A stretch of 64,000 bases of DNA, from positions 186,001 through 250,000 of the forward strand of contig NZ_SMSG01000004.1 in assembly GCF_004382795.1 (NCBI RefSeq), written 5' to 3'. A program made the position numbers and the translations under genes. Below are positions 4,141 to 58,543 of the stretch, in pieces. A model generated the notes under the pieces. The model was not told the origin of the DNA. It worked only from the letters and a program-made list of their open reading frames with translations, and did no database searches. The stretch comes from Cumulibacter soli. GTDB lineage: Bacteria; Actinomycetota; Actinomycetes; Mycobacteriales; Antricoccaceae. Position 1 is the stretch's first letter. Each line of letters opens with the position of its first letter.

Positions 4141-5910
4141 CTACACGCTCGGAACGCCGGCGCCCGGTGAACGGTTCGACTGCCACGCATCCCACATCGC
4201 GGCGTACGCCGTCGGTGCTGCGCGCAACTCATCATGGGTGCCCTGTTCGGTGATCGCGCCGTCAGCCATCACCACCACGCGGTCGGCCTCCGCCGCCTGC
4301 GTCAACCGGTGCACGATCACCAACGCGGCACGGCCTTCGATCGCCGCCGCCACCGCGGCATCGAGCGCCGAGGACTGCGCGCTACCAGCCTCGGCGCTCG
4401 GTTCGTCCAAGATGACGAAGGGCGGGTCAGCGAGGACGACCCGAGCGAGCGCCATGAGTTGCGCATCGGCGGCGCTCACCTGGTGCCCCTGGTGTCCGAC
4501 CTGGGTGTCCAGTCCGTCGGGCATCGCGGCCACGAGCCCTCCGGCGCCTACCGACTCGAACGCGGCACGCAACTGCTCGTCGCTGGCTCCTGGGGCGGCG
4601 AGCAGCAGATTCTCGCGCAGCGTGCCGTCGAAGACGTGCACTTCCTGACTGATCATGAACACGTCAGGTTCCATCGCGTGCGAGCCGCTGTCCGGTTCGC
4701 GAAGCCCGGCGAGCAGCGCGCCGACGGTTGATTTGCCGGCGCCCGATGCACCGACGAGCGCGATATGTTCGGCCGGGCCGACACGGATCGAGACATCACG
4801 CAGCACCGGCCGCGCAGGGTCGTAGCCGAAGGACACATTCCACAACCCGGCAACGACGTCGCCTGGCCGACCCGACGACGCGACCTCCCGCTGGCGGTAG
4901 CGCTCTGGAGCATCGTGCTGCCCGGCAGCGAAGTCGATGCCGACGATGCGAGCGAGCGAAGCGGCCGCAGACTGCAGATCGTCGACCACGAACAGCAACT
5001 GGCCGATCGGGTCGTACAACCGCAGGAAAAACAGGACCGCCGTGGTCGCCATTCCGACCGACACTGCCCCGTCGCTGACCAGCCAGTACGCCACGAGCAG
5101 GATCGCGGCAGTGCCGACGAACTCGGCCGTGTTCAGCCGGCCGAAAAACCGGTTCTGCACGATGCGCGCCCGCAGCGACCACACGGCCACTCGCCAGGAT
5201 GCCGCACCGATCTCGCGCTCTTCGCGTGATGACAGGTTGTACGCCCGGACCGTATCGATGCCCTGCATCGCCCGCAGCAACTGGGCGGTCTTCTGCGCAT
5301 TCGCCGCTCGCTCGGCCTGGTAGACCTGTGGCGCGGTACGCAAGTACCAACGCATCGCGAGCACATGCAACGGCACGATTACCAGCATCGCCAGCGCGAA
5401 TCGCCAGTCCAGCAGCGCCATGCCGAAGAATGTCATCAGGATCGTGAACGCTGCACCGCCGACCGCGGGCACCACCCGCGGCGCCACTTCGGCGATCTGT
5501 GCCACGTCGTCGGTCGCGCGACTGACCAGGTCGCCGGCACCCGCCCGCTCGACCGTACTGTGCGGAAGCCGTAGTGCGCGCGACACCATCCGTTCACGTA
5601 GGTCGGCGAGCAGTCGTTCGGTCAGGCGGCTGGCGATGACCAATCCGAGCGCGAGCAGCCCACCTTGTGCGATCGCAGCGGCGCCCATCGCTATCCCGAG
5701 CCATACGACCCGCGACTGACCGTCGGCGTCCACCATCGCGCCCAGCGACGCAGGCATGACCAGTCCCGCGGCGGCCGAACCGATCAGCAACACCGTTGCC
5801 GCGGCCAGCGACCACCACCGTCCGCGCAGCGATCTGGCGATCGCCGCTCGGGTCTGGGCTGCCGTCGCGATGGGCAGCCGCACTTCGGGCGCTTGCTCGG
5901 TCGAACTCAT
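4141..5910 (-). CDS. ABC exporter-fold half-transporter, catalytic Walker motifs intact, signature motif lost
   Basis: About 589 residues: an N-terminal type IV (exporter-fold) membrane domain and a C-terminal ATPase. The ATPase has Walker A GASGAGKST (near residue 390), a Q-loop, Walker B VILDEP with the catalytic Glu, and the H-loop His (VIVHRL). The ABC signature LSGGQ is replaced by VSAADAQ and the D-loop is altered (AEAGS instead of SALD). Its partner is the preceding gene, with which it shares an ATGA stop/start overlap; this fixes the start at ATG 5910 rather than TTG 5922. As the last gene of the iron-regulated siderophore operon, the pair most likely imports or exports a siderophore, like IrtAB or YbtPQ. 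Transport direction cannot be read from sequence. Confidence 0.88.
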   Translation of the reverse strand: MSSTEQAPEVRLPIATAAQTRAAIARSLRGRWWSLAAATVLLIGSAAAGLVMPASLGAMVDADGQSRVVWLGIAMGAAAIAQGGLLALGLVIASRLTERLLADLRERMVSRALRLPHSTVERAGAGDLVSRATDDVAQIAEVAPRVVPAVGGAAFTILMTFFGMALLDWRFALAMLVIVPLHVLAMRWYLRTAPQVYQAERAANAQKTAQLLRAMQGIDTVRAYNLSSREEREIGAASWRVAVWSLRARIVQNRFFGRLNTAEFVGTAAILLVAYWLVSDGAVSVGMATTAVLFFLRLYDPIGQLLFVVDDLQSAAASLARIVGIDFAAGQHDAPERYRQREVASSGRPGDVVAGLWNVSFGYDPARPVLRDVSIRVGPAEHIALVGASGAGKSTVGALLAGLREPDSGSHAMEPDVFMISQEVHVFDGTLRENLLLAAPGASDEQLRAAFESVGAGGLVAAMPDGLDTQVGHQGHQVSAADAQLMALARVVLADPPFVILDEPSAEAGSAQSSALDAAVAAAIEGRAALVIVHRLTQAAEADRVVVMADGAITEQGTHDELRAAPTAYAAMWDAWQSNRSPGAGVPSV

Positions 5911-7562
5911 GCTCGCGGCCAATCGACGATCCGATCGGCGACGGCGCGGAACGCCGGCGAACCGGTGATGACCAGCGTGCTGCGGCCCGCGCGCGCCTCG
6001 CGCAGGTTGGCGGCAATCTGCACCTCGGTGACCGAATCGACCGCCGTCGTGGGCTCGGTGAGCACGAGCACCGGTGGGTCCTGCGCCACTGCTCGTGCCA
6101 GCGCTACGCGCTGACGTTGCCCACCGGAGAGCCGTTCGCCGGCGTGGCCAACCTCGTCGTCGAGGGCATCAGAGTGCAGAATCTCGGCGTAGCCCGAGGC
6201 ACGCAGAGCTGCGCGTCCGGTCTCATCGCGCCGCCGATCCAGCGTCACGTTCTGCAACACGCTCCCGGCGAACAGTTGCGCATCATGCGGCGCGACGAGC
6301 ACATGAGCGCGGTACCCGTCTGGCTCCAGCGCTGCGACGTCCTCGCCGCCATACGTGACACGGCCCCCGCCCTCGCCGCTGGTCACCGCGCGGATCAGTT
6401 CACCCGCGGCGTCCTGATCGGCTCGCACGACAACAAACTCGCCGGGCGACACGCACAGGTCGTCGGCGATCCGCAATTCGGCTGGACGGTCGGTTTTGGC
6501 GATCGCCCGATCTCCGACGTGCCGGGGCTCGTCACGCAGCACCGCCAACACTCGGTCGGCCGAAGCCAGTCCGCGTGACCAGAACGTTCCGAAGTTGGTA
6601 CTCAACGCCTGTAGCGGTCCGATGATGAACTGGGCAAGTCCCGCGACGGTCACGAGTTCGGCGATCGACACCTGCCCGGTCACCATGAGGTAGCCCGCTG
6701 CCGTGCCGATTGCCGCGATGAACAGTCCGGTCAGCAGGTTCACCAGTCCGAGGTAACCGCCGTACACGCTGCGGGCCTGCAGCGTCGCCGACAGTGCGTC
6801 ACGGCTGGCGTTGCGATAACGCAGGTCAGCCTGCTCCTCGCCGCGGATCCCCTTGATGATGCGGTATCCGCTCATCAGGTCGGCCGCTCGACCAGCCGCA
6901 GCCGCGGCCATCTGCTGCTCGGTCGCGCTGCGCCGCCGCAGCGGTTCACCCGCCCGGTCCATCAAGAACAACAGCGCAGGAACGCCGAGCAGTACGCCGA
7001 GCCCGAGCGGCCAGGAGATCGTCAACAAAACGACGGCCGCAAAGACGACGCCCAGTGCCTGACCGAGTGGATATACACCGATCGCCACGACCAGCGAGAG
7101 CCGATCAACATCGGAGCTCGCGATCGACATCGACACTCCGGGGAGCCGCTCGCGATCGGCGCTGCCGCGCGGATCCAATAATCGTTCGGCGACCCGGACG
7201 CGAAGCTGCTGGCGTACGGCGTGCATTCCGATCCAGCCGATACGTGAACCGAACCGCCACGACATAGACAGCATCGCGAAGTCGAGCGCGAGCAACCCCA
7301 GCCACATAAGCAATGTGGAGAAGTCGGGATCGCGGATCGCGTTGTCGATAGCCAGCCCCGCGAGCACCGGAACCAGCGCCTCACCTAACTGATGCAGCAC
7401 CCCCAGCAGCGCGCCGGGGATGACGTACCGTCGTGGCGCCCAAATCGTTGCCCAGCCAAGGCGTCGCGCGGTCGTGTCGTCATCGATCTTCAGGTCAGCG
7501 ATTTTGTACGGCGTCTCAGCCGGCGCAAACCAGGGCAGACCTAGCCGCTCCCGTACTCCCAT
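5907..7562 (-). CDS. ABC exporter-fold half-transporter, degenerate ATPase with intact signature motif
   Basis: 551 residues: a membrane domain (about 40-330) then an ATPase domain. The signature LSGGQRQR (about 479-485) is intact. The Walker A position reads ADQDAAGEL, with no GxxGxGK(S/T). Walker B reads LVLTEP, so the Mg-binding Asp is Thr. The Q-loop Gln is His, and the H-loop His is missing (ITGSPAF). This half should therefore not hydrolyse ATP at its own site, but can complete the site of the downstream partner. It starts one base after the stop of the siderophore ATPase gene, so it belongs to the same operon. Its role is inferred to be siderophore or ferric-siderophore transport, in a heterodimer with the next gene. 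Confidence 0.88.
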   Translation of the reverse strand: MGVRERLGLPWFAPAETPYKIADLKIDDDTTARRLGWATIWAPRRYVIPGALLGVLHQLGEALVPVLAGLAIDNAIRDPDFSTLLMWLGLLALDFAMLSMSWRFGSRIGWIGMHAVRQQLRVRVAERLLDPRGSADRERLPGVSMSIASSDVDRLSLVVAIGVYPLGQALGVVFAAVVLLTISWPLGLGVLLGVPALLFLMDRAGEPLRRRSATEQQMAAAAAGRAADLMSGYRIIKGIRGEEQADLRYRNASRDALSATLQARSVYGGYLGLVNLLTGLFIAAIGTAAGYLMVTGQVSIAELVTVAGLAQFIIGPLQALSTNFGTFWSRGLASADRVLAVLRDEPRHVGDRAIAKTDRPAELRIADDLCVSPGEFVVVRADQDAAGELIRAVTSGEGGGRVTYGGEDVAALEPDGYRAHVLVAPHDAQLFAGSVLQNVTLDRRRDETGRAALRASGYAEILHSDALDDEVGHAGERLSGGQRQRVALARAVAQDPPVLVLTEPTTAVDSVTEVQIAANLREARAGRSTLVITGSPAFRAVADRIVDWPRA

Positions 7563-8471
7563 CTACATGCCAGCCGAGTAACTCAGATCGCGGGTGGCCT
7601 CGTCCGTAGCCGAGGGACGAATCGGCACCACCATCGGAGTTCCGGTCGCGGGATCCGGTACCACGAGCGAGCGTAGACCGAACACTTCGTGCACGAAGTC
7701 GACCGTCACGACGTCCGCCGGCGGGCCGGCAGCGATCACCTGGCCGGCCTTCATCGCGATGATGTGATCGGCGTACCGCGCGGCGTGGTTCAGGTCGTGC
7801 AGTACCGCCACCACCGTGCGACCGGCGCGATGCAGCGCACTGAACAGTTCCAATAGCTCCAGTTGATGCGCGATGTCCAGGAAGGTCGTGGGCTCATCCA
7901 GTAGCAGCAACTCGGTCTGTTGCGCGAGCGCCATGGCAACCCAGACTCGCTGCCGCTGGCCACCGGACAGTTCGTCAACGACCCGCGATGCCAGGTCATT
8001 CACTCCGGTGGCGGTCATCGCCGCGGCCACGGCATCGTCGTCCGCCGGTGACCATTGACGCAGCAACCGCTGATGCGGGTAACGCCCGCGACCAACCAGT
8101 TCAGCGACGCGAATGCCGTCCGGAGCCTGTGAGGTCTGCGGCAACAGGCCGAGCCGTTTCGCCACCTCGCGCGACGGGTACGACGCGATCGCGCGGCCGT
8201 CAAGGAGGACCTCCCCGGCCTTCGGGGTGAGCAGGCGCGCGAGCGCGCGCAGCAGCGTTGACTTTCCGCACGCGTTCGGGCCGACGATCACGGTGAAGGA
8301 GTTCTCCGGGATGTCGATCGATAGATGTTCGCTGATGGTCCGGCCGTCGTAGCCGAGGGTGGCATCAATCGCGCGCAGCGGCATGGACGAGCTCATCGGA
8401 GGCGCATCATTCGGCGCCGCATCACGCCCCGTCATCGGCAGCACGGCACCATCGGTGACCTGCTCGTTCAT
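7563..8471 (-). CDS. Iron-siderophore ABC transporter ATP-binding protein (FecE/FepC type)
   Basis: 302 residues, the ATPase that powers ferric-siderophore uptake through the two permeases encoded upstream. Visible motifs are Walker A GPNACGKST, signature LSGGQRQR, Walker B LLLLDEPTTFLD and the H-loop in LHDLNHAARYAD. The FepC-like features (GLLPQ and the C-terminal VFGLRSLVV region) point to the iron-chelate family. The first 30 residues before MPLRAIDATLGYDG are low-complexity and may not all be translated. The ATG overlaps the stop of the preceding permease by four bases (ATGA), indicating translational coupling. Confidence 0.92.
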   Translation of the reverse strand: MNEQVTDGAVLPMTGRDAAPNDAPPMSSSMPLRAIDATLGYDGRTISEHLSIDIPENSFTVIVGPNACGKSTLLRALARLLTPKAGEVLLDGRAIASYPSREVAKRLGLLPQTSQAPDGIRVAELVGRGRYPHQRLLRQWSPADDDAVAAAMTATGVNDLASRVVDELSGGQRQRVWVAMALAQQTELLLLDEPTTFLDIAHQLELLELFSALHRAGRTVVAVLHDLNHAARYADHIIAMKAGQVIAAGPPADVVTVDFVHEVFGLRSLVVPDPATGTPMVVPIRPSATDEATRDLSYSAGM

Positions 8472-9541
8472 GCTGACCTCCGAGATTCATGGATGAGTAA
8501 CCAGACGAGATACACGCCGCCGATGCCGACGGTGACCAGCCCGACCGGAATGTTGCCGAACAGCTGTGCGGCGACGAAGTCCGAGACGCACAACAGACAC
8601 GCGCCCATCGCCGCGGACGGTACCAGGGCGATGCCCGCAGAGGCCGTCATACGTCGGGCCAACTGCGGTGCTGCCAGCGCGACGAACGCGATGGGACCGG
8701 CGGTCGCGGCGACGACCGCGGTCAGCGCGACAGCCAGCAACACGATCGCGCCACGGGCCTTTTCAACCTTGATCCCGAAAGCACGCGCCGCATCGTCACC
8801 GAGTGCCATCGCGCCGAGCGGTCGTGAGGCCACTATGCACAGCAGCAAAGCCACCGCGATTACCACCAGCGGCGGAGTGACCTCGCTCCAGGTGATCTGA
8901 TCGATCGACCCAGCACCCCAGGCCGCGCCGACCATCGCAAGGTCGAGGTTGGCGACCAGTAACAGGTAGTTGTTGGCCGCGGTCAGCATCGCCGATAGCC
9001 CGATCCCGACGATTATCAGCCGGAAACGGCTAGTGCCGCGGCGGTAAGCGAACAGATAGATCAGCGCGGCGGTGAGAAAGCCACCGATGAGTCCACCTGT
9101 CGAGAGCGTGGTCGCACTGGAGCCGACGAAGATCAGTGCAACCAACGCGCCGGTGTACGAGCCGGCCGATAGTCCGATGACATCGGGTGAGCCGAGCGGA
9201 TTGCGGGTCAGTGACTGAAAGAGCGCCCCCGAAACCCCAAGCGCCGCTCCGAACACCAGCCCGGCGATGGTCCGGGGCAGTCGCCATTCCATCACCACGA
9301 CGTAGCTGAATTGGCTGTTGTCTCCGGCGAGCGCCGAGAGCACTTCGGTCAAGGTGAGCGGATAGTCCCCGATCCGCAAGGCGAGGATGGCGGCGATCAG
9401 CGCCACGATCAGCAGGGCGCCCACCACCACGCCGGTGCGCAGGGTGAACTGCACTCGCACCGCGCCGACACCGAGCCGTACGGCGGGTCGCCCGTCCGGC
9501 ATCCTCGTCGTACGGCGGCGCGGAGCCGTGTCGGTCGTCAT
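8468..9541 (-). CDS. Iron-siderophore ABC transporter permease (FecCD family, second permease)
   Basis: 357 residues, very hydrophobic, with the FecCD/BtuC signature LTRNPLGSPDVIGLSAGSYTGA and about ten predicted membrane segments. It forms the membrane channel for a ferric siderophore together with the neighbouring FecCD protein. It begins with a roughly 40-residue Arg-rich cytoplasmic tail, longer than usual. It overlaps its neighbours by four bases on both sides, so stoichiometric translation is likely. The siderophore itself is not predictable. Confidence 0.92.
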   Translation of the reverse strand: MTTDTAPRRRTTRMPDGRPAVRLGVGAVRVQFTLRTGVVVGALLIVALIAAILALRIGDYPLTLTEVLSALAGDNSQFSYVVVMEWRLPRTIAGLVFGAALGVSGALFQSLTRNPLGSPDVIGLSAGSYTGALVALIFVGSSATTLSTGGLIGGFLTAALIYLFAYRRGTSRFRLIIVGIGLSAMLTAANNYLLLVANLDLAMVGAAWGAGSIDQITWSEVTPPLVVIAVALLLCIVASRPLGAMALGDDAARAFGIKVEKARGAIVLLAVALTAVVAATAGPIAFVALAAPQLARRMTASAGIALVPSAAMGACLLCVSDFVAAQLFGNIPVGLVTVGIGGVYLVWLLIHESRRSA

Positions 9542-10587
9542 GATTCGCTCGCGTTTCGTCGGCGCGCAAGCAGGATCAGTACCGGGGCGCCGACGAATGC
9601 CGTCACGATGCCGACGGGGATCTCACCGAGCGGCAGCACGACTCGACCGACGACGTCCGAGGTCACCATGAGCAGCGGGCCAACGATGAGCGAACCTGCG
9701 AGTACCCACCGCTGATCGGGTCCGGTGATCCACCGTACGACGTGCGGGACCATGAGTCCCACGAACAGGATCGGACCGGCGATTGCGGTGGCTGATCCGG
9801 CCAGCAACGCGACGGCGATGACGACTACCACGCGTGCGCGACCTAGGTTGACGCCTAAGGCGCGCGCGGTGTCCTGGCCGAGCGAGATAGCGTTCAACGG
9901 CCGTACGACGGCTATCGCCAGCAGCAGACCGAGCACGATCAAGGGCAACACCGGGAGTATGTCGTTCACCGAGCGCCCTAGCACCGACCCGGTCAGCCAC
10001 GATCGCATCTGGTCGAACACGCTCGGGTTTTCCAGCATGATGCCCGTCGTAACGCCCATCAGCACTGCGCCGACGGCGACACCGGCCAGGGTGAGCCGCT
10101 CGGCGCCGGACCCTCCCTTGTGCGCGGCCCCGATGGCGTAAACGCCGATGGTGGTCAGCAGCGCACCGCCGATGGCGAACCAGACGATGTCGCCGGGCGC
10201 CGCGATGCCGAACAGCAGTGTGCTGAGCGTGACGAACAGCGCCGCACCGGCGTTTACGCCGAGGATTCCCGGGTCGGCGAGCGGATTGCGCGTCAGCGCT
10301 TGGATGAGCACGCCGGCGACCGCGAGCGCGGCGCCGACGATGATGCTGACGACCGTCCGCGGAAATCGGGATCCCCAGATGTTGACGTTGTCGTCCCGCA
10401 GGCCATGCCCGAACAGGGCGTCGATCACCCGCGGAAACGGGATATCGCTGGAGCCGATCGCGAGGCTCAGCAGGACCGCGATCGCCAGCAGCGCAAGACC
10501 GACGAGCAGTCCGCCGCCCCGCGTCCACACGCTCCGGCCGTCACGACGACGGCCGGAGCGTTCGGTGGCGACCGGCGTACTCGTCAC
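9538..10587 (-). CDS. Iron-siderophore ABC transporter permease (FecCD family, first permease)
   Basis: 349 residues with the FecCD signature (LTRNPLADPGILGVNAGAAL) and about ten membrane segments. It is the partner of the downstream permease in a heterodimeric ferric-siderophore channel. It starts with GTG three bases after the stop of the binding-protein gene and ends in an ATGA overlap with the next permease. The first 20 residues are charged and cytoplasmic. Confidence 0.92.
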   Translation of the reverse strand: MTSTPVATERSGRRRDGRSVWTRGGGLLVGLALLAIAVLLSLAIGSSDIPFPRVIDALFGHGLRDDNVNIWGSRFPRTVVSIIVGAALAVAGVLIQALTRNPLADPGILGVNAGAALFVTLSTLLFGIAAPGDIVWFAIGGALLTTIGVYAIGAAHKGGSGAERLTLAGVAVGAVLMGVTTGIMLENPSVFDQMRSWLTGSVLGRSVNDILPVLPLIVLGLLLAIAVVRPLNAISLGQDTARALGVNLGRARVVVVIAVALLAGSATAIAGPILFVGLMVPHVVRWITGPDQRWVLAGSLIVGPLLMVTSDVVGRVVLPLGEIPVGIVTAFVGAPVLILLARRRNASES

Positions 10588-10590
10588 GCG

Positions 10591-11544
10591 CTACTTGGCC
10601 ATCTTCGGTGCAGCTTCGGTGAGTTGCGGGCCGAGTTCGTCAAAGACGTACTGGACCGTCAGCGGCGAGGCGCTGTTGATTGCGACAGCTAGGGCAAGGT
10701 CGGGGAAGAACAGCGATCCGTACTTCGAGCTGGGCAAATCTGCCAGCCGCGGATCGTCCTTCAGCGGCGTGCAGTCGCTGTAGCAGAAGACCCCGACGAC
10801 GTCGGCGTCCAACTCGGGCAAATTCTCGCGCGAAATCGACGCGCTGGTGTTCATCGTGTTGTCCTGGCCGGTTCCAGGCTCGAGGCCGAGCAGGTCCAGC
10901 AGTGACCCGTTGCCGAAGTACAACTGGTCCTGGTCGTACCGGACCCACTGATAGGTCTTGCCAGCGAGTTCAGGGGCGGCTTCGCTGAGGTCGGCGGCCT
11001 TCGCATCCACGTCGGCGGTGATCTCTTCGGCCTTGTCAGTCGTGCCGGTGCTTTGCGCGACGACATCAAGAACGTGCGTCCAGGAGTCGTTGACGTCCAT
11101 ACCGGTGACGACCGGCGCGACCTCGCTAAGGGCGTCGTACGCAGCCTCATCGTTGATCGAGAACGGCTGAACAATGATCACATCTGGCTTGTAGGAGGCG
11201 ACCTTCTCCCGGTTCACCGAGCCGTCTGCGCCGAGCAGCTCATCGTCGACAATCGACTCGTCGATCACACCGTCCAACCAGGGCGCGTTGTCAAGGTCGA
11301 CCCCGCCGGCCGCTACCGGCTCGACCCCGAGGGCCAGCGCCGTGTCGGTCCAGGCACCGCCGATCACCACGACTCGTTCGGGATCTTCGGGAACGGACAC
11401 GTCTCCGAACTTCGTGGTCACGGTGACGCCCGAGCCGTCATTGGCGCCGTTCGAGCCGCCGTCGTCATCAGACGAACCGCATGCCGACAGCAGCAACGCC
11501 GCCACTCCCGTGATCGCCGCGACGACGCGCGCTGAACCCTTCAT
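10591..11544 (-). CDS. Iron-siderophore ABC transporter substrate-binding lipoprotein
   Basis: About 317 residues. The N-terminus MKGSARVV...LLLSACGSS is a lipoprotein signal peptide with lipobox LSAC, so the mature protein is tethered outside the membrane. The body matches the FepB/FhuD-type periplasmic fold (ERVVVIGGAWTDTALALGVEPVA near the start, and YKPDVIIV). It should capture a ferric siderophore and hand it to the FecCD permeases. ATG at 11544 is chosen over the in-frame GTG at 11559 because GGAGG lies four bases before the ATG and the signal peptide then begins properly with MK. It is the first gene of an iron-regulated operon. Confidence 0.92.
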   Translation of the reverse strand: MKGSARVVAAITGVAALLLSACGSSDDDGGSNGANDGSGVTVTTKFGDVSVPEDPERVVVIGGAWTDTALALGVEPVAAGGVDLDNAPWLDGVIDESIVDDELLGADGSVNREKVASYKPDVIIVQPFSINDEAAYDALSEVAPVVTGMDVNDSWTHVLDVVAQSTGTTDKAEEITADVDAKAADLSEAAPELAGKTYQWVRYDQDQLYFGNGSLLDLLGLEPGTGQDNTMNTSASISRENLPELDADVVGVFCYSDCTPLKDDPRLADLPSSKYGSLFFPDLALAVAINSASPLTVQYVFDELGPQLTEAAPKMAK

Positions 11545-11578
11545 CGGACCTCCACCCACTCAGTTGATCAACCCCATA

Positions 11579-11607
11579 AAGTTAGGGCAGACTAACCTTA
11601 GATGCAA
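11579..11607 (-). promoter_or_regulatory. Promoter of the siderophore operon
   Basis: On the minus strand TTGCAT (-35) is followed by a 17-base spacer and TAACTT (-10, fits TANNNT). This is 34 bases upstream of the ATG of the binding-lipoprotein gene. The iron box lies almost entirely in the spacer, the arrangement expected for repression. Confidence 0.65.
11582..11600. promoter_or_regulatory. IdeR/DtxR-type iron box
   Basis: TTAGGGCAGACTAACCTTA matches the 19-base IdeR/DtxR consensus TTAGGTTAGGCTAACCTAA at 15 positions. It sits between the -35 and -10 of the siderophore operon promoter, so iron-loaded IdeR/DtxR would block transcription. The match is read directly; regulation is inferred from the known family. 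Confidence 0.85.
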
Positions 11608-38686: not shown

Positions 38687-41600
38687 TCACCAGGTGTCGA
38701 CGAACGGATACTTCTTCTCGGTGCGCGGAGCGGTCGGCGGCAGCCGGCGCATACTGTCGGCCAACCATTCTCGGGTCTCGGCGGGGTCGATCACGTCGTC
38801 AATTCCGCCGCCAACGGCCACGTTCACCGCCCGCGCGGCCTCGTACGCGGCGTCCACCTGTTTTTGGAACTGTTCGCGCCGCTCGTCCGGGTCCTCGATG
38901 GCCTGTAGTTCCTTGCGATACCCCAACTTCACCATGCCCTCGATGTTCATCCCGGCAAACTCTGCGGAAGGCCACGCCACCGAGAAGAAGCCGACCAGGG
39001 TGCTGGCCCCGAACATCGCCTGCCCGCCAAGCCCGTAGGCCTTCCTGATGGCCACCGCGAACAGCGGCGTGGTCATATTCGCGCCGACGTTGAACAACCT
39101 GGCACAGTGCCGCACGAGGGCCTTGGATTCTGCCTCCGGACCAACCATCATTCCGGGGCAGTCGATCAGGCTTAGCACCGGAATGTCGAATGCGTCGCAC
39201 AGTTGCATGAACCGTGCGGCCTTATCGGCGCCGTCCGAGTCAATGGCGCCCGCCAGGTGATGCGGGTTGTTCGCAATAACTGCCATCGGGCGACCCTCGA
39301 CACGGATGAACGAGGTGATGATGCCGATCCCGAAGTCACGCCGGATTTCCAAGACCGAGTCGACGTCGGCGATGAGCTCGATGATCTCGCGCATCTCGTA
39401 TAGGCGCTTCCCGCCCTCGGGTACGACGTGACGCAGCAGTCGTTGGTCGTGCGCCTCCCACTCGTCGACTGGCCCCTGGAAGTAGGAGAGGTACTTCTTT
39501 GCGACGTCGACCGCTTCCTCCTCATCCTTGACCAGGATATCGATGACCCCGTTCGGTGACTGCATCGACGGCGGTCCGAGTTCCTCCGGTGTGTACATAC
39601 CGAGCCCACCGCCCTCGATCATCGCCGGGCCGCCCATCGCCGTCGTCGAGGACTCGGTGGCGATGATGACGTCGGCGCAGGCCAAGAGCGCAGTGTTTCC
39701 GGCGAAGCAACGTCCGTTAGTGATGCCGATTACCGGAACCAGCCCGCTGAGTTTCGAGAACGTCACGAAGGTATAGACGTCCAAGGCCGGACCGGGACCC
39801 AACTTGTCGTCCCCGGGCCGCCCGCCGCCGCCCTCGGCGAATAGGACCAGCGGGATTCGGAAACGATGACAAAGTTCGTAAAGCCGATCCTGCTTGTAAT
39901 GGTTCATTCCGCCCTGAGTACCCGCCAGGACCGTGTAGTCGTACGAGACGACCATCGCCCGTGAACGCTCGTCATCGAACAGGTCACCATTGATCGAACC
40001 GGTACCGCCAACCAGCCCGTCGGCGGGCGAGATCTTCTTCAACGTCTCTTCGTCATCCCGAGAACGCCGTCGGGCGACGACCAACGGCCAGTACTCCTTG
40101 AAAGAGCCTTCGTCGAGCAGGTGCGCGATGTTCTCCCGCGGGGTGCGGTACCCGAAAGAGTGCCGCTTGTCGACCGCCGCCGTGCGGTTCTCGTCGAGGA
40201 CGAGCGCCCTGCGATCGAAGAGTTCCTGCAGATCGTCACGGATATGGTCCGGATCAACCTGGGCACCAGCGTTATCGACAGCCTCGGCATCGTTGTCGAT
40301 CTGATCGAGCCGTACGACCGCTTCGCCTTCGTACACGATGTTGCCGACGTCGGTCGGTATCTCGTATACCCGCCCGGTGGTGCCGGCACGGAGCACATGC
40401 TCCATCTTCATCGCCTCGATCACGGCGACCTGTTGGCCCTTTCGTACGACGTCCGAGACGTTGACGTCAATCGAAATGATCGTGCCTTGCATCGGGGCCG
40501 GCACCTCTGCGACCTCGCCGTCGCCAATCGCCGACGAAGGCGCCCGCACCGACGTTTGAGCGACCGGCTCCGGGGGCTGGGACGTGCCAGTGAAGTCGAA
40601 GAGCGCCAACGGGTCGGCACTGACCGCCTGTGCGCTGCGGCCGTCCGCCCGTTGTGGGGCGGTCACCGTTGTCACCGCCGACTCGACCATCGACAGCGGC
40701 GGGTTGGCCTCAGTCCACGCTTCTGCCGCCCGGACCAGTTCGGCCACATGATCGTCCACAAACCGCGTATAGAACCGGTCGGCCAGGACATCCGGGTGGG
40801 CGAGGATTGCCTGCAGGAAGGGGATGTTGGACGTGATGCCGTCCATTCTGAAGTCCCGCAGCGCTCTGCGCAGTCGCTTGATTGCGTCCCCGACGTTTCG
40901 TGAGCCCGAGTGGACGACCACCTTGGCCAGCAGCGAGTCGAATGCCGGATTCGTTCGGTACCCCGCGTATCCGAAACCGTCCACACGCACACCGGGACCG
41001 CCGGGCGGCTCGTAGGTCTGAAGCAGTCCTCCGCCTGGTCTGATCGCCCCGTCCTCGGCGAGTACCTCCAAGTTCACCCGCGCCTGGATCGCATAGCCCC
41101 GGGGCTCGAGCGGCGTACCGCCCAGGCCGATCTCGTCGATCGTCGCGCCCTGTGCAAGCTGGATCTGGGCCGCGACGATGTCGACGCCGGTGACTTCCTC
41201 AGTCACCGTGTGCTCGACCTGAAGCCGCGCGTTGGCTTCGATGAAGACGAATTGAGTTCCGTCGCTCTCCGGCCCGACATCCAGCAGAAACTCGAAAGTG
41301 CCCGCGTTGGCGTATGCCGTGTGGCGCGCGAGCGCCAGCGCGGCGTCGATGATTTGATCGCGGACAGCGTCCCCGATCCCGGGTGCGGGCGCCATTTCGA
41401 GCACCTTCTGGTGCCGCCGCTGCAGGCTGCACTCTCGCTCCCCGAGTGACGCCACCGCGCCGTACATGTCGCCCAGGACCTGGACCTCAATATGCCGGGC
41501 GCGAGCGACGAATTCCTCCACATAGACCTCATCCGACCCGAATGACATCGCCGCTTCGGACCGGCACCGCGCGTACAGGTCCTCAAGTTCAGCCGCATCG

Positions 41601-42118
41601 CTCACGACTCGTGACCCGCGACCTCCGCCTCCCGCGATCGCCTTGATCATCATCGCGCGCCCAGCTGGAAGACCGGCGAAGAACTCGGCCGCCTCATCGA
41701 GCGACACCGCCCGGTCGATCCCGCGCATTACCGGTACGCCTGCCTCGAGTGCGGCTGCCCGAGCCCGGCCCTTATGACCGAACAACTCCAGGTGTTCGGT
41801 TTTCGGGCCGATAAAGGCGATTCCGGCATCGGCGCACCGTCGAGCGAACTCTGCGCTTTCAGCCAGGAAGCCGTACCCCGGATGGATCGCCTCAGCACCT
41901 GCAGAAGTAGCCGCTTCCAGCACCGCGTCGATATCGAGGTACGAACGTGGTCCCTTGCCCGGCAGGGCCACGGCCTCATCGACCCGCTGAACATGCAGGC
42001 TGTCCGCGTCGTCGACGGAATACACGCCTATAGTTCGGATCCCAAGTTCGGATGCCGCCCTGCTGACACGAAGCGCGATTTCCCCTCGATTGGCTATCAA
42101 GATTGACCTAAACGTCAT
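38687..42118 (-). CDS. Single-chain biotin-dependent acyl-CoA carboxylase (second paralogue)
   Basis: About 1143 residues carrying all activities. Residues 1-445 are biotin carboxylase (ANRGEIALRV, ATP-grasp loop KAIAGGGGRGSR, and VEHTVTEEVTG). A biotinyl domain has VIEAMKMEH with the biotin Lys near 571. The last 500 residues are a crotonase-fold carboxyltransferase (GGGGRPGDD, NGRCFAGN, DCPGMMVGPEAE, VAWPSAEFAGMN). The layout matches the single-chain long-chain acyl-CoA carboxylase type known from mycobacteria. It should biotin-carboxylate an acyl-CoA, forming a dicarboxylyl-CoA. ATG at 42118 has GAGGAGA upstream. It closes the cluster. Confidence 0.93.
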   Translation of the reverse strand: MTFRSILIANRGEIALRVSRAASELGIRTIGVYSVDDADSLHVQRVDEAVALPGKGPRSYLDIDAVLEAATSAGAEAIHPGYGFLAESAEFARRCADAGIAFIGPKTEHLELFGHKGRARAAALEAGVPVMRGIDRAVSLDEAAEFFAGLPAGRAMMIKAIAGGGGRGSRVVSDAAELEDLYARCRSEAAMSFGSDEVYVEEFVARARHIEVQVLGDMYGAVASLGERECSLQRRHQKVLEMAPAPGIGDAVRDQIIDAALALARHTAYANAGTFEFLLDVGPESDGTQFVFIEANARLQVEHTVTEEVTGVDIVAAQIQLAQGATIDEIGLGGTPLEPRGYAIQARVNLEVLAEDGAIRPGGGLLQTYEPPGGPGVRVDGFGYAGYRTNPAFDSLLAKVVVHSGSRNVGDAIKRLRRALRDFRMDGITSNIPFLQAILAHPDVLADRFYTRFVDDHVAELVRAAEAWTEANPPLSMVESAVTTVTAPQRADGRSAQAVSADPLALFDFTGTSQPPEPVAQTSVRAPSSAIGDGEVAEVPAPMQGTIISIDVNVSDVVRKGQQVAVIEAMKMEHVLRAGTTGRVYEIPTDVGNIVYEGEAVVRLDQIDNDAEAVDNAGAQVDPDHIRDDLQELFDRRALVLDENRTAAVDKRHSFGYRTPRENIAHLLDEGSFKEYWPLVVARRRSRDDEETLKKISPADGLVGGTGSINGDLFDDERSRAMVVSYDYTVLAGTQGGMNHYKQDRLYELCHRFRIPLVLFAEGGGGRPGDDKLGPGPALDVYTFVTFSKLSGLVPVIGITNGRCFAGNTALLACADVIIATESSTTAMGGPAMIEGGGLGMYTPEELGPPSMQSPNGVIDILVKDEEEAVDVAKKYLSYFQGPVDEWEAHDQRLLRHVVPEGGKRLYEMREIIELIADVDSVLEIRRDFGIGIITSFIRVEGRPMAVIANNPHHLAGAIDSDGADKAARFMQLCDAFDIPVLSLIDCPGMMVGPEAESKALVRHCARLFNVGANMTTPLFAVAIRKAYGLGGQAMFGASTLVGFFSVAWPSAEFAGMNIEGMVKLGYRKELQAIEDPDERREQFQKQVDAAYEAARAVNVAVGGGIDDVIDPAETREWLADSMRRLPPTAPRTEKKYPFVDTW

Positions 42119-42217
42119 TGATCTCTCCTCTACCGAAACGGCGTTTCGTGACGTAGCGAGTCCATTGGAGTTGCCGCATCGCGGCGGCACATTGCATTGC
42201 CCTTCCTGCGGCACGAC

Positions 42218-44620
42218 TCACTTCAGAATCCCGCGGGAAAACAGATCGTTCACGGCATCCTCGGAGAATCCCAGCTCTCCAAGGACCTCGGCCGTGTGTT
42301 CACCCAGGTTCGGATATCGCCGACTCGGAACGACCGACCCACCCGGGCGAATGAACTGGTTCTGAGACATGAGTGGGTATCCGAACGGGTGGGTGTGTTC
42401 CGTCCACCTCCGATGCATGCCGGCATCGTGATAAAGATGATCGGCAACATTCTCCAGTGGCACCGCGGGCACCCCCGCGGCCTGCAATTGTTCGGACAGT
42501 TCCCACCTGACGCACTTCTTAGTAGCGTCCTCAACAACACGCTCTACCTCGTCTTGATGAGCCAGGCGGGTACTAGCGAGAGCGAACCGCTCGGCACACT
42601 CGAGGGGAATCGAGAGCACTCGACACAGATCCCGCCACTCGCCATCGGAGCGGATCGACAACGCGAGCCATTCGTCGTCCCCCTGGCATCGAAAGATGCC
42701 GTGCGGCGCCATCGACAGGTCGCGATTTCCACGACGCTTCGGATCCTGGCCCTCGAACTGAGCATCAGCAAGCGTCGTACCAGTCATCCACAGCGTGGAT
42801 TCCAGCATGGCGGCGTCAATGTGTTGGCCCCGACCACTGCGCTGGCGCTCGTAGAGCGCCGCGAGGACGCCCTGTACTGCGAACAGCGGGGTGAAGAAGT
42901 CGGCGATCATCACCCCCACGCCTCTCGGCGGGTTCTCTGGGAAGCCGGTCAGCATGTTAATGCCGCCGTACGCCGCGACACCGGATCCAATCGCGCCGAA
43001 GCCGCTGCGCGGACCATCGGAACCGACCGCGGGGATGCTGAGAACAATTAACTCGGGACGATCGGCCAGCAGCGACTCTGGGTCAAGACCCCATTTCGCC
43101 ATCGCCCCGCCCCGGAAGTTTTCGATCACTACATCGGCCCAACCGATGGCCTTTCGCGCGATCTCGACGCCTTCTGCCTCACGCATGTTCACGGCCAGGC
43201 TTCGTTTGTTGCCGCCAGCCAAGTTCTGGTGCGAGTTGGTATCGATTGTCTGCAGCCCGGGTGGGTGATTACCGATCTCACGTGCGAGGTCCTGGCGCGT
43301 GCTGGACTCCAGACGTACGACATCGGCCCCCATGTCCGCCAGGAACCTAGCCGCGATCGGACCAGCCAGCATCCAAGTAAAGTCCGCGACCCGTAGGCCT
43401 TCGAGCGGGAGCCTGCCGGTCTGCGATACCGCGCTGCGGCCGCCCTGTCGACGAGCACTCTCCTGCAGCCACTCGGCCAGCATCGCCGGATCATGCGCTC
43501 CGGGTCGCGGCGGCGCCGTCGGCCGCGGCAACGTCGCATGACTGAAGACCAACGGCGCGCGCGGGACGACGACCGGTGACGGGCTATCCGGCACGGCACT
43601 GAACATGTTCCGTGCGAGGAGTTGGGGGTCGGACAGCAGATCGGTAGCACCCAACACCGGGGTGACCATGATCAGACGTGACTGACCCGATTGAACGACC
43701 TCGTCGGCGGTGTACCTCGTGCATAGCTCCGCCATCGTCTCGGCCAATTGCTGGATGCGTTCGAAGTAGTACTCGTAATCGAGCCATGCCGGATCGTGAT
43801 AGGTCTCCCCCAGACGCTCCTGTTGAAACCAGGCGATCACCTGCTTGTATCGCGCCCCGAAGAAGACCACGCTCACCCACCGGCCATCGGCGCACTGGAA
43901 GACGCCTCCGCGAGGGTTTTCAGCCCAGGAGGGCCGCGATGGAATGCGGTCGTGCCAGGTGAGATGGTTGACATCGCCAGTCTGGGCCGAGGCAAAGGCC
44001 ACCGCTTCCTGGGCGGTGACCTCGAACCACCCCGCGCGGCCCTGCAACGCGCGCGCGTTGACGCCGAGCAACCCCGCCAGCGACGCGGAGATCGCCGCAT
44101 ACGATTGAGAGAGCAACTCCTTCGGCTGCTCCGGTCGACCTTCGGCGCCGCCACATAACCAAGCCAACCCACCGGCGGCACTCAGCAACAGATCCGTCGC
44201 GGTCTCCCCGTTGAAGGGCGAGTCCGGCGGGAACGGGTCGAGCAAGACCAGAGCGACGTCAGGATGCTCCTCGGCGAACGCCTCGATCGAGATACCTAGT
44301 TGATCCATGATCGGGCGCCCCGGCGAGCAGATCACCAGGTCACTGCCGGTGATGAGCGCAGTCAACTCACGCCGACCGTCGGCACTGCTCGTGTCAATCT
44401 CGACGCTTTGCTTACCTACGTGGAGCGTGAGATCTCGCGCCTCTCGACAAGTGCCCGGCTCGGCACCGCGGTCGCTGTTAGGCCGGTCCACGCGCAACAC
44501 CGTCGCGCCGAGTGCTGCCAGGAACCTGCCGCCCAATGCGCCAGCCGAATCAGATAACTCGAGTACCCGCAATCCCGCCAACGGCGCACCGTTGGCATCC
44601 ACGTCGGAAGTTTCGCTCAT
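42218..44620 (-). CDS. Double-domain class III (CaiB/BaiF) CoA-transferase
   Basis: 800 residues, twice the usual length, made of two CaiB-type domains (about 1-395 and 400-800). Each starts with a CaiB-type N-terminus (LAGLRVLELSD; LEGLRVADFTW). The C-terminal copy keeps the catalytic Asp (GVMIADFFTPLFA) and the GRGQHIDAAM stretch. At the same place the N-terminal copy reads LLSQSYAAISA, with Gln for Asp, so only one half is likely catalytic. It would transfer CoA to the pathway acid. The gene overlaps the upstream carboxylase gene by four bases (ATGA), a tight functional link. Confidence 0.9.
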   Translation of the reverse strand: MSETSDVDANGAPLAGLRVLELSDSAGALGGRFLAALGATVLRVDRPNSDRGAEPGTCREARDLTLHVGKQSVEIDTSSADGRRELTALITGSDLVICSPGRPIMDQLGISIEAFAEEHPDVALVLLDPFPPDSPFNGETATDLLLSAAGGLAWLCGGAEGRPEQPKELLSQSYAAISASLAGLLGVNARALQGRAGWFEVTAQEAVAFASAQTGDVNHLTWHDRIPSRPSWAENPRGGVFQCADGRWVSVVFFGARYKQVIAWFQQERLGETYHDPAWLDYEYYFERIQQLAETMAELCTRYTADEVVQSGQSRLIMVTPVLGATDLLSDPQLLARNMFSAVPDSPSPVVVPRAPLVFSHATLPRPTAPPRPGAHDPAMLAEWLQESARRQGGRSAVSQTGRLPLEGLRVADFTWMLAGPIAARFLADMGADVVRLESSTRQDLAREIGNHPPGLQTIDTNSHQNLAGGNKRSLAVNMREAEGVEIARKAIGWADVVIENFRGGAMAKWGLDPESLLADRPELIVLSIPAVGSDGPRSGFGAIGSGVAAYGGINMLTGFPENPPRGVGVMIADFFTPLFAVQGVLAALYERQRSGRGQHIDAAMLESTLWMTGTTLADAQFEGQDPKRRGNRDLSMAPHGIFRCQGDDEWLALSIRSDGEWRDLCRVLSIPLECAERFALASTRLAHQDEVERVVEDATKKCVRWELSEQLQAAGVPAVPLENVADHLYHDAGMHRRWTEHTHPFGYPLMSQNQFIRPGGSVVPSRRYPNLGEHTAEVLGELGFSEDAVNDLFSRGILK

Positions 44621-47600
44621 CGATGCCCCTCTGCATTACGCCGGCCACGTGCTCCAACCGAACGTAATACATCGGCGAGGATCCGTCGGGTATCGCTGGG
44701 ATCTATGACGTCATCGACGTGGAACGACGCAGCCTGTCGAACCGCTTTGCTTCGTTCATACGCTTCGTCGACGAGTTGCCGGTATCGCTCCATTCGCTGG
44801 TTCGTATCCTCGATGGCCTCAAGTTCCTTGCGATATCCGAGTTTTACCTGGCCCTCAATACCCATCCCGGCGAATTCACCGGTCGGCCACGCCACGGCCA
44901 TCGCCGGCTCGGTGATGCTGCCGCCCGCCATCGCGATAGCGCCCAGACCGACCGCTTTTCGCAGTATCACCATGAACAGCGGGATAGTCAGTTGTGCGCC
45001 TACCGTGAACAGCGTGTTGCAATGCCGCACGGCGCCAGTCTTTTCAGATTCAGGGCCGACCATGATTCCCGGCGTATCACAAAGCACCACCAGCGGGATC
45101 CCAAACGATTCCAGCTGCTGCATAAAGCGCGCGGCCTTCAGCGCCCCTTCGCTATCGATGGCGCCAGCCATGTGCTCGGGGTTGTTCGCCAAGATCCCGA
45201 CCGGTTTGCCCTCTATGCGCGCCAGCGAGGTGACCATTCCGCGCCCGTAGTCGCGCCTAAGCTCGAGCACCGATCCGTCGTCCGCGATTCCGGTGATCAC
45301 GTCCCGGACGCTGTAGGTGCGAAGTCTGTTCTCAGGTATGACATGCCGAAGCACTTGCTGGTCCGATCCGACCCAATCGTCGACCGGTCCTTGGAAGTAC
45401 GAGAGATACTGCTTCGCCGTCCGCACGGCCTCGGCTTCGTCCCGTACGACAATGTCGACAACCCCATTAGTCGACTGGACCTCGATCGGCCCAATCTCTT
45501 CCGGCGCAAATACGCCGAGGCCACCTCCTTCGATCAGCGCCGGGCCGCCCATTCCGATATTGGAGTCCTCGGTAGCGATCACCACATCGCACATGCCAAG
45601 CAGCGCGGCGTTGCCTGCGAAGCAGTAGCCGTTCGTGATGCCTATGGTCGGCACACGGCCGCTCAGTCGGCCCATTGCTGCGAAACTCTGCACGGCGAGC
45701 GAGCGAGGATTCGCATTGTTCGACGGAGCGGCCTCGCCACCTCCCGCTCGGCGGCCTCCTGTACCGGCTCGTCCGCCCCCGCCCTCGGCGAAGAAAACTA
45801 CTGGGAGTTCCCAATCCGCCGCCAGTTGCAGTATCCGATCCGTCTTCAGGTGATTGAGTTGGCTTTGGGTGCCGGCCAGCACCATGTAGTCGTAAGACAA
45901 GACGGCAGTACGTGATCCGCCCGGACCAAAGTCCGCCCCATTCACATCACCGATGCCGCAGACCATTGAATCGCCTGAGAAGTCGCGAACAACCTCCTCT
46001 TCCGGCAGTCCGGTTCCGGACGTGAGAACGAGCGACCCGTGCTCGACGAACGTTCCCGTATCGCACAAGTCATCGATATTTTCACGGGCGGTGCGATAGC
46101 CTTTTCGGTGCCGCTTCGCCACAGCGGCAGGACGCGATTCATCGCGACCGGCGGCATGATAGTCAAGCAACTCCTGCAGATCTGGCCTCACGTGATCCGG
46201 GTCCAGCTCAGCATCACTTACGTCGACGGATTCGTCCACATCTTGAGGCTCGATGGTTACCAGCGTGTGTCCCTCGAGCACCGCGTCCCCCGGCACCGCA
46301 ACAACGTCATGAATCATCCCACCGACCGTCGCGTTGATCGGATGTTCCATTTTCATGGCCTCCATCACCGCGACCGGTCGACCAGCAGCAACGAGATCGC
46401 CTGCCTGCACGGCAACCTCAACGATGGTCCCCTGCATCGGAGACACCACACGTGTCAGCGATTCGTCGTACGCGGCCTCCCTAGTCTGCCGCCGTTCAGG
46501 ACCGCGATCGCGTGCGTTGAGGACCGACAGCGGATCATTCGTATCGACACGGGAGCCCGCTAACCCCGATTCGACACCGTCAGGCCCGGGAGTCTCTACA
46601 TCAGGACGCGGCATCCGCGACAAGATCTCATCGGCGTTGTCGTCGACGAACCTCGTTGACGGCGTCCCCTTCGCCACCGTCGGATGACGCAACACCGCGG
46701 CCAGGAAGTTGACGTTTGTCGCCACGCCACGGATACGCGCTTCATCCAGCGACCGAGCTGCCTTCGCGTACGCATCCTCGATTCGATCCGTCCGGCTGTG
46801 CACGATCACCTTCGCCAGAAGCGGATCGTAGCGATGCGATGTGCGGTACCCGGTATAACCAAAGGAATCCGTGCGCACCCCCGATCCCGCCGGTAGGTCG
46901 AACGCTTGAATCACACCCGAGGTAGGGATCGGACTGCCATCGGGTGCAATTCTTTCGGTGTTGATTCGTGCTTGCACCGCGAAGCCCCGAGGCGAAGGGA
47001 TGTCACGTTGCCCAAGCCCAAGGGAGGCTAGCGACGAGCCGCTTGCCACTTCGATTTGTGCACGCACCAGGTCCACCCCGAGCACTTCCTCGGTCACGGT
47101 GTGTTCTACCTGCAGACGAGGGTTCGCCTCCATGAAGTAGAAGCCCTCATCCGATACGAGGAATTCGAAGGTTCCGAGGCCCTCATACGACGCACACGAC
47201 GCCATTCGTACTGCCGCATCCGCGATGGCTGACCGCACTTCGCCGGCAAGCCTCGGAGCAGGAGCCACTTCGATGATCTTCTGGAATCGACGCTGGATGC
47301 TGCAGTCACGGTCGTAGAAGTACGACACGTTTCCCGCACTGTCACCCAGCACCTGGACTTCGATATGTCGCGCCCCGGTCAAGTACTGCTCAGCGAAAAG
47401 TCGCCCATCCCCGAAGAAGGCAAGCGCCTCCGACTCGCACCTCGCAAATGCTTCGTCAACGTCTTCGGCGATCCGGACAATCCGTTGACCACGGCCACCA
47501 CCGCCCGAGGACGCCTTCAATATCATCGCGCTGTCTTCAGGTAGGGACGACAGGAACTCGGACGCCTGCTTGCTCGTGATGCCGCTTTCGGTACCCGACA

Positions 47601-47991
47601 ACACCGGCACCGACTGCGCTACGGCCAGTTCCCGCGAAGCCGCCTTATCGCCAAATAAAGTCAACGCGTCTGGGCGCGGCCCGATAAACCTGACGCCCCG
47701 GTCCTGGCATGCGCGCGCAAACGAGGCCCGCTCACTCAGGAATCCGTACCCCGGATGCACTGCGTCACAGCGCATGTCGACGGCTGCCGCGATGACCGCG
47801 TCGATGTCGAGGTAAGCCGCTGGTCCGGTCCCAGGCAGTTCGTACGACTCGTCCGCGTACGAGGCGTGCAGCGATTCGCGGTCATCCTGCGAATGGATCC
47901 CTACCGATCGGATTCCAAGCTCCGCTACTGATCGCGCGATGCGGATCGCGATCTCGCCTCTGTTGGCAATCATTATGCGTTCAAACTTCAC
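44617..47991 (-). CDS. Single-chain biotin-dependent acyl-CoA carboxylase (first paralogue)
   Basis: 1124 residues, same layout as the carboxylase ending the cluster: biotin carboxylase (ANRGEIAIRIARS, KASSGGGGRGQR), biotinyl domain with MEAMKMEH (Lys near 547), and a crotonase-fold carboxyltransferase (NGYCFAGNAAL, CDTPGIMVGPESEK, VAWPTGEFAGMG). The central Gly-rich loop is longer than in the paralogue (GGGGRAGTGGRRAGGG). The acyl-pocket region differs (GGSITEPAM against GASTLVGFF), so the two probably take different acyl-CoAs. Starts with GTG after TGAGG. Overlaps the CoA-transferase gene by four bases. Confidence 0.93.
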   Translation of the reverse strand: MKFERIMIANRGEIAIRIARSVAELGIRSVGIHSQDDRESLHASYADESYELPGTGPAAYLDIDAVIAAAVDMRCDAVHPGYGFLSERASFARACQDRGVRFIGPRPDALTLFGDKAASRELAVAQSVPVLSGTESGITSKQASEFLSSLPEDSAMILKASSGGGGRGQRIVRIAEDVDEAFARCESEALAFFGDGRLFAEQYLTGARHIEVQVLGDSAGNVSYFYDRDCSIQRRFQKIIEVAPAPRLAGEVRSAIADAAVRMASCASYEGLGTFEFLVSDEGFYFMEANPRLQVEHTVTEEVLGVDLVRAQIEVASGSSLASLGLGQRDIPSPRGFAVQARINTERIAPDGSPIPTSGVIQAFDLPAGSGVRTDSFGYTGYRTSHRYDPLLAKVIVHSRTDRIEDAYAKAARSLDEARIRGVATNVNFLAAVLRHPTVAKGTPSTRFVDDNADEILSRMPRPDVETPGPDGVESGLAGSRVDTNDPLSVLNARDRGPERRQTREAAYDESLTRVVSPMQGTIVEVAVQAGDLVAAGRPVAVMEAMKMEHPINATVGGMIHDVVAVPGDAVLEGHTLVTIEPQDVDESVDVSDAELDPDHVRPDLQELLDYHAAGRDESRPAAVAKRHRKGYRTARENIDDLCDTGTFVEHGSLVLTSGTGLPEEEVVRDFSGDSMVCGIGDVNGADFGPGGSRTAVLSYDYMVLAGTQSQLNHLKTDRILQLAADWELPVVFFAEGGGGRAGTGGRRAGGGEAAPSNNANPRSLAVQSFAAMGRLSGRVPTIGITNGYCFAGNAALLGMCDVVIATEDSNIGMGGPALIEGGGLGVFAPEEIGPIEVQSTNGVVDIVVRDEAEAVRTAKQYLSYFQGPVDDWVGSDQQVLRHVIPENRLRTYSVRDVITGIADDGSVLELRRDYGRGMVTSLARIEGKPVGILANNPEHMAGAIDSEGALKAARFMQQLESFGIPLVVLCDTPGIMVGPESEKTGAVRHCNTLFTVGAQLTIPLFMVILRKAVGLGAIAMAGGSITEPAMAVAWPTGEFAGMGIEGQVKLGYRKELEAIEDTNQRMERYRQLVDEAYERSKAVRQAASFHVDDVIDPSDTRRILADVLRSVGARGRRNAEGHR

Positions 47992-48052
47992 CGAACCTCA
48001 TCTCTACGACGGTTGCTATCGGCAGGACAAACTTTGTTGGCATCATGGTGAC

Positions 48053-49663: not shown

Positions 49664-49809
49664 TCGAAACCACCTTCTCTGATCGTTTATTGCTGCCTCC
49701 GCCCGCTCGGGGTTCGCGCGGACGTCAGGCGAGAGATTTACCCAAACTCGAATACGGCAGTCGGCATCACCATCCGTCGAATGAGAAGCAGCCAGGATCG
49801 ATGCTTTGT

Positions 49810-51417: not shown

Positions 51418-51457
51418 TCGAGACGCTCCTTCCTGACAGCGACACGAGTGGTCGTTA

Positions 51458-54340: not shown

Positions 54341-54362
54341 GATGACCTCACCTCCTTCGCGC

Positions 54363-58334: not shown

Positions 58335-58543
58335 AAGTGCTCCCCTCGATAATCTCGTCGACCACAGCGACACTGACCGAATGTGCGGCGACGCGAGATT
58401 GGTCGCACATACTGCGGCTCAGACTTCAAGCGGCCAAGTCGATTAATGCGGTTCTGGCAACTTTCCGATTCTGTCGGCGCGCGGAAACAAGTTACGATGC
58501 GCGAATTACGACTACTCCCCCTAAGTTTCCTCAATCCGGCAAG

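Follow-up and report, generated by a model that had tools for sequence, protein, structure and literature searches.

A family of paired actinobacterial ABC half-transporters with one complete and one dismantled ATP site

How does a pump work, and how has it arisen, when the motifs needed to bind and hydrolyse ATP are lost reciprocally from its two halves? This question is raised by two adjacent genes of Cumulibacter soli, which lie in a stretch of 64,000 nucleotides (contig NZ_SMSG01000004.1, positions 186,001 to 250,000), hereafter the window, and encode the ATP-binding cassette (ABC) half-transporters A and B. Both proteins are half-transporters of the exporter fold (type IV), in which a transmembrane domain (TMD) precedes a nucleotide-binding domain (NBD), as judged from the order of the Pfam domains ABC_membrane and ABC_tran, and they are made as two separate chains. 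The original prediction on this locus had proposed that the pair retains a single usable ATP site, and its gene coordinates, strands and ATGA overlap agree with the sequence.

In an ABC dimer, each site combines Walker A, Walker B and the A-, Q- and H-loops of one NBD with the signature of the other (PMC7756269), whereas the D-loop is assigned to the signature's side of the composite site (PMC12038006). Because of this composite architecture, the intact motifs of the window pair fall into one site and the lost motifs into the other. B keeps the A-loop, Walker A, Q-loop, Walker B and H-loop, together with a signature turned into VSAADAQ and a broken D-loop, much as had been predicted. A provides an intact signature and D-loop, and has lost the A-loop tyrosine as well as the hallmarks of Walker A and of the Q- and H-loops. 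The sole exception to this sorting by site is the glutamate of Walker B, which A keeps next to a replaced aspartate. It was therefore wrong that A would keep nothing but the signature, and, since its conserved D-loop sits on the signature's side, the partition is even cleaner than first described.

The same arrangement is found far beyond the window. A search with protein A covered 5 genomes from the family-level group (E 1e-30), 397 of the order (E 1e-50) and 394 of the class, with matches in 2 (the genome of the window included), 140 and 111 genomes, respectively; at the level of the phylum, a threshold of E 1e-115 is reached in 27/396 genomes, 12 of which lie outside the class. Motifs were compared in 120 loci plus the window, which gave 121 A halves, 117 of them with a paired B half. 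Locus L126 stops at a contig end, where no B partner was seen, and the NBDs of B in L027, L076 and L123 were read separately. Two of these loci, L027 and L123, show a change of frame within the TMD-NBD linker that breaks B at nearly the same position in the two genomes.

In this sample the live site is complete in 117/117 pairs, which bears out the proposed combination of one complete and one dismantled site. All 121 A halves retain the signature and the D-loop Asp, and none of them shows a canonical Walker A, a Walker A Lys or an H-loop His; the Q-loop Gln persists in 1/121, the Walker B Asp in 3/121 and the Walker B Glu in 27/121, and the column of the A-loop Tyr is a gap in 120/121. In the B halves, a canonical signature is never found (0/117), and the D-loop Asp is kept in 12 and lost in 105. 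Walker A, Q-loop, Walker B and H-loop of A and the signature of B are all non-canonical in 114/117 pairs, the exceptions being L094, L116 and L130, and with the D-loop added this holds for 103/117. An alignment-free search for GxxxxGK[ST] gave the same result (0/121 in the last 230 residues of A, 117/117 in the last 260 of B). Moreover, some dead-site columns have become conserved for a different residue, such as His in the Q-loop (106/121) and in Walker B (89/121) of A, or Gly in the D-loop of B (105/117). Family A halves were also recognized in 32 of 80 further loci (profile scores above 430, the next lower being 368), and a last set, L211-L240, yielded 29 family A units and none in L220. 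The comparison of orthologous pairs across actinobacteria for co-decay, suggested along with the prediction, thus showed one motif state to be shared across 121 A and 117 B halves, and the relatives with both halves intact that would have spoken against it were sought with no success, Walker A being present in 0/121, 0/32 and 0/29 family A halves. In its motifs, the one-site design is a fixed trait of a large actinobacterial pump family. Natural A-B fusions were considered as well and rejected, as the single open reading frames (ORFs) matching both profiles are classical heterodimers with Walker A intact in both parts.

The two halves also occur together when the search starts from B, a control that was needed since the A halves had been collected by their resemblance to A. 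In the same 397 genomes of the order, with three candidates scored per genome, the B profile matched in 223/397 genomes at E 1e-130, a cut-off that also admits classical second halves, and the A profile in 186/397 at E 1e-100. An A partner was found for 150/150 of the best B places listed (E up to 3e-203), either adjacent (145, with gaps below 0.7 kb) or distant (5). Among the former, 139 B places lie at most 600 bases downstream of A, and six more are adjacent too: G298, with a gap of 674 bases, G396, G341, G325:C4, G342 and G235, the last four by reading of the DNA. In the five distant cases, A lies 10.8-10.9 kb off on the same strand, with one ORF of 3609-3649 codons in between. The apparent orphan A genes of L095, L101 and L104 were discarded as such, since wider regions of these genomes, and of two similar ones, contain a B gene of the same orientation at a distance of about 10.9 kb, past one ORF for a non-ribosomal peptide synthetase (NRPS). 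The pairing of the halves that had been proposed is therefore supported, with an A partner for each of the 150 best B places listed.

With regard to the origin of the pair, the closest kin that the loci contain beyond the family itself are classical heterodimers; in those taken as outgroup, the first half keeps Walker A and the second half has a signature of the LSAGQ type. In a tree of 68 halves, the A halves of the family join the classical first halves (SH-aLRT 86) and the B halves the second ones (96). A tree built on the TMDs only, with 143 family and 22 outgroup pairs (165 in total), needs one change each for the disappearance of Walker A from A and of the signature from B, four for the B D-loop (read as one loss and three returns) and five for the Walker B Asp of A. 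The D-loop Asp of B is retained in 22 pairs that form a basal clade. Both trees were obtained by quick methods and carry long-branch warnings. The family thus has its roots among classical heterodimers in which one site was already weakened, and its decay is old, stepwise and fixed. A reciprocal decay as a local event is not borne out, given that the state is old, takes one change on the tree and has kin already endowed with one weakened site.

Two observations touch on this history. In L022, L023, L069 and L110, the Gly of the B D-loop has apparently gone back to Asp inside a clade that had lost it. In L164 and L234-L237, the one-site A/B pair directly adjoins, in the same direction, a classical heterodimer of which one site is weakened; an origin by tandem duplication was rejected, as A and B of L164, L235 and L236, the three of these loci placed in the tree, nest in the basal clade, apart from the neighbouring classical pair.

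The degenerate half is itself under constraint. For the A NBD, the ratio of non-synonymous to synonymous substitutions (dN/dS) ranges from 0.08 to 0.43 across 15 close pairs, some of them sharing members. It exceeds that of the transmembrane part of A in 12/15 but stays well below 1, so the A NBD is under purifying selection. The live-site motifs of A are nearly invariant, and the place of its lost Walker A varies more than the NBD does on average (mean entropy of 2.10 vs 1.77, in 65 rows). Confident AlphaFold2 models of the single chains predict long A-loop strands in B (354-364 and 367-377) and only stubs in A (363-365 and 369-371). Over nearly their full length, both models match TmrAB, TM287/288 and MsbA. 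With A as query, Foldseek places TmrAB chain B, TM287/288 chain A and MsbA at the top; with B, the leading matches are TmrAB chain A, MsbA, MsRv1273c/72c and TM288. CydDC heads the VIA list of structural matches for A, and IrtAB and YbtPQ are also among the structural matches. By sequence profile, IrtAB falls outside the best 60 PDB rows, which is no proof of absent kinship. The fold by itself does not distinguish export from import.

The genomic surroundings point to iron. In the window, the pair follows the genes of a FecBCD-type siderophore importer, all in the same direction, in a putative operon (Table 1) that may be expressed as one iron-controlled transcript. The iron-box-like site ahead of it, a match in sequence only, is the sole one with up to 3 mismatches in the 64-kb window, where 0.01 would be expected; the consensus used is that of DtxR/IdeR/DmdR1. 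For the family at large, genes for FecCD, binding proteins, NRPS, ornithine monooxygenase, SIP and dihydroxybenzoate enzymes within about 6 kb were counted as siderophore genes, representatives being identified. They occur near 76/152 family loci (63/120 plus 13/32) vs 0/48 control ABC-exporter loci taken from the same scan, or 0/34 when controls are restricted to a GC above 0.62. An iron box was detected in 54/76 family loci with siderophore genes, in 14/76 without them and in 0/48 controls, and, in Markov-shuffled copies, in 0/152 family and 1/48 control loci. In L215-L219 the order is B - NRPS - A, with NRPS domains seen in 3/5; in the three scanned, L215, L216 and L219, the intervening ORF codes for an NRPS that carries three adenylation domains. 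Among the 120 pairs outside the basal clade, 81 have siderophore genes or an iron box. Examples of basal-clade loci with neither are L107-L109, L128-L130 and L149-L155.

Table 1. Features of the half-transporter pair and of its upstream genes in the window (positions from the first letter of the window)
Feature	Position	Strand	Basis or remark
Half-transporter A	5907..7562	-	551 aa; ABC_membrane + ABC_tran; AlphaFold2 pLDDT 92.9
Half-transporter B	4141..5910 from its ATG	-	589 aa; ABC_membrane + ABC_tran; AlphaFold2 pLDDT 92.3
ATGA overlap, A stop / B start	5907..5910 (ATGA read 5910-5907)	-	sequence
A: former Walker A, VRADQDAAGEL, no P-loop, no Lys	6396..6428	-	alignment + sequence
A: Q-loop Gln replaced by His (APHDA)	6279..6293	-	alignment + sequence
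A: signature LSGGQRQ, intact, live site	6111..6131	-	alignment + sequence
A: Walker B VLVLTEP, Asp replaced by Thr, Glu kept	6051..6071	-	alignment + sequence
A: D-loop TTAVDS, intact, live site	6033..6050	-	alignment + sequence
A: H-loop VITGSP, His lost	5955..5972	-	alignment + sequence
B: A-loop SFGYDP, intact	4816..4833	-	alignment + sequence
B: Walker A GASGAGKST, intact	4726..4752	-	alignment + sequence
B: Q-loop ISQE, intact	4642..4653	-	alignment + sequence
B: signature VSAADAQ, ruined, dead site	4459..4479	-	alignment + sequence
B: Walker B FVILDE, intact	4402..4419	-	alignment + sequence
B: D-loop SAEAGS, Asp replaced by Gly, dead site	4381..4398	-	alignment + sequence
B: H-loop IVHRL, intact	4303..4317	-	alignment + sequence
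FepC-type importer ATPase	7563..8471	-	Pfam/gene list
FecCD-type importer permease	8468..9541	-	Pfam/gene list
FecCD-type importer permease	9538..10587	-	Pfam/gene list
Peripla_BP_2 siderophore-type substrate-binding protein, first gene of presumed operon	10591..11559	-	Pfam/gene list
Iron-box-like site	11582..11600	.	3 mismatches in 19; 22 bases before the operon's first listed start codon

Elsewhere in the window, the predicted genes of the region 44617-60478 have a third-position GC of 0.65-0.74, whereas values of 0.72-0.84 prevail in the first 34 kb, a difference that a foreign block might show. Two single-chain biotin-dependent carboxylases, each joining biotin carboxylase, biotin carrier and carboxyltransferase, are encoded at 38687-42214 and 44617-47991 on the same strand as the one gene between them, and the product of 56331-58373 is a dipeptide-type ABC importer protein in which a permease (BPD_transp_1) is fused to an ATPase (ABC_tran, oligo_HPY).

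The reading that we favour, and hold to be quite probable, is that A and B form an obligate heterodimeric ABC transporter of the exporter fold, most likely a siderophore exporter, which is encoded in an iron-regulated operon and uses ATP at one site only. ATP would be bound and hydrolysed exclusively where the A-loop, Walker A, Q-loop, Walker B and H-loop of B meet the LSGGQ and D-loop of A; its binding between Walker A and LSGGQ would close the NBD dimer, with one ATP per cycle, and hydrolysis at this single site would reset the pump. The other interface, where the Walker A, Q-loop, Walker B and H-loop regions of A face the signature and D-loop of B, would act as a permanent and probably nucleotide-free contact between the NBDs. 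In the siderophore clade, the cargo would be a siderophore moved outward.

Known heterodimers resemble the pair up to a point. TM287/288, TmrAB, BmrCD and MsRv1273c/72c share with it the fold, two unlike halves and one degenerate site, and the classical heterodimers found among the loci even have the same polarity, with weak catalytic motifs and a good signature in the first half and the reverse in the second. As in such heterodimers, the family shows a complete consensus site, a weakened second site and descent by halves; the Walker A P-loop that belongs in a degenerate site is, in contrast, found in 0/121 A halves. The closest known pump is Pdr5, in whose dead site the Walker A Lys is changed to Cys, the Walker B Glu to Asn, the H-loop His to Tyr and the signature to LNVEQ, so that all regions but the D-loop are altered, and where ATP is still bound (PMC7756269, PMC8421411). 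Restoring its four dead-site motifs to consensus abolishes the activity (PMC7756269, PMC8421411). However, Pdr5 is a eukaryotic full-length transporter of the ABCG type, with NBD and TMD in inverse order within one chain, whereas the window pair has the order TMD-NBD on two chains. The opinion that the decay is more extreme than in known exporters can be kept in part: P-loop, A-loop Tyr and, in 105/117 B halves, the D-loop Asp are gone, but Pdr5, altered in all dead-site regions other than the D-loop, still binds ATP. No exporter half lacking Walker A was described in the titles and opening lines of abstracts listed by the literature searches, a coverage outside which most subscription papers fall.

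The example of Pdr5 gives substance to another view of the dismantled site, namely that it still binds ATP as a static glue through unusual contacts and that the pair is an ordinary degenerate-site exporter with some extra drift. The weak site does hold nucleotide in Pdr5 (PMC8421411), MsRv1273c/72c (PMC12038006) and TM287/288 (PMC7756269), of the two ATP that TmrAB occludes it hydrolyses one (PMC7205462), and the position of the Walker B Glu is acidic in 118/121 A halves. In the family, by contrast, this site has lost its P-loop and A-loop tyrosine and, in most members, the D-loop Asp as well. The total absence of the Walker A Lys and of GxxxxGK[ST] from the A NBDs, the gap in place of the A-loop Tyr, the short A-loop strands of the A model and the loosened sequence of the former Walker A all count against bound ATP, and make the static-glue explanation unlikely. 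Far less credit can be given to pseudogenization or a sequencing error in the genome of the window. The gene is certainly patchy, as 3/4 other genomes of the family-level group, two of them from the same genus, give no match at E 1e-30, but the identical motif state of 121 A and 117 B halves and a dN/dS of the A NBD well below 1 in 15 close pairs refute such an accident.

The direction of transport offers a further alternative, in which the pair would import a ferric siderophore like IrtAB or YbtPQ. These are also ABC heterodimers of siderophore systems with a similar exporter fold, and both the siderophore gene context and the structural matches would suit an importer. On the other hand, the window already contains a FecBCD-type importer beside the pair, complete down to the binding protein, and the best Foldseek rows are TmrAB and TM287/288 for A and TmrAB and MsbA for B. 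In addition, IrtAB binds two ATP and its IrtA carries a siderophore-interacting domain (PMC10246721), whereas the pair has one complete motif set only, and a Pfam search of both proteins found neither a SIP nor a FAD_binding_9 domain in A or B. A further guide is the coelichelin cluster, cch, of Streptomyces coelicolor, where an NRPS gene, cchH, separates the half-transporter genes cchG and cchI (SCO0491 and SCO0493). The order B - NRPS - A of L215-L219 resembles this arrangement, and the halves of the window differ from it by overlapping at ATGA, without any NRPS between them. CchGI is the presumed coelichelin exporter (PMC12161575; for cch, see also PMC3765725), and its cluster is under an iron regulator and has a complete importer, CchCDEF, beside the two half-transporter genes (PMC12161575), just as the window pair sits beside a FecBCD-type importer. 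This is a likeness of gene layout only, and the text of PMC12161575, in the part drawn on here, is silent on the ATP-site motifs of CchGI. With this evidence on both sides, import seems improbable.

Several points weigh against the siderophore exporter with a single ATP site. The absence of ATP from the dead site is deduced from sequence and single-chain models, and A of the window keeps the Walker B Glu, as do 27/121 A halves. Sequence does not reveal the direction of export. More genomes have a match to the B profile than to the A profile at the cut-offs used, and the check for partners covered the best 150 B places (E up to 3e-203). Finally, 76/152 family loci have no siderophore gene within about 6 kb, and the basal clade shows neither siderophore genes (0/22) nor iron boxes (0/22). 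Because half of the loci and the basal clade lack a siderophore context, a role in siderophore export cannot hold for every member of the family.

The evidence leans towards the broader proposal that a whole family of actinobacterial exporters has abolished its second nucleotide site, including the P-loop, the A-loop and mostly the D-loop, and works with a single ATP and a permanent contact, so that a power stroke with two ATP would not be essential. What degenerate sites do is a long-standing question in work on ABC transporters, and a review regarded their functional advantages as unclear (PMC7756269). From classical heterodimers, through a basal clade that keeps the D-loop in B, to a mostly siderophore-linked clade that has lost it, the family shows the stepwise decay of such a site. 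If the dead site has indeed lost the parts that hold ATP, these pumps would offer a case without a second ATP, unlike TmrAB and Pdr5, and a natural experiment on whether one ATP may suffice to close the NBDs and drive export.

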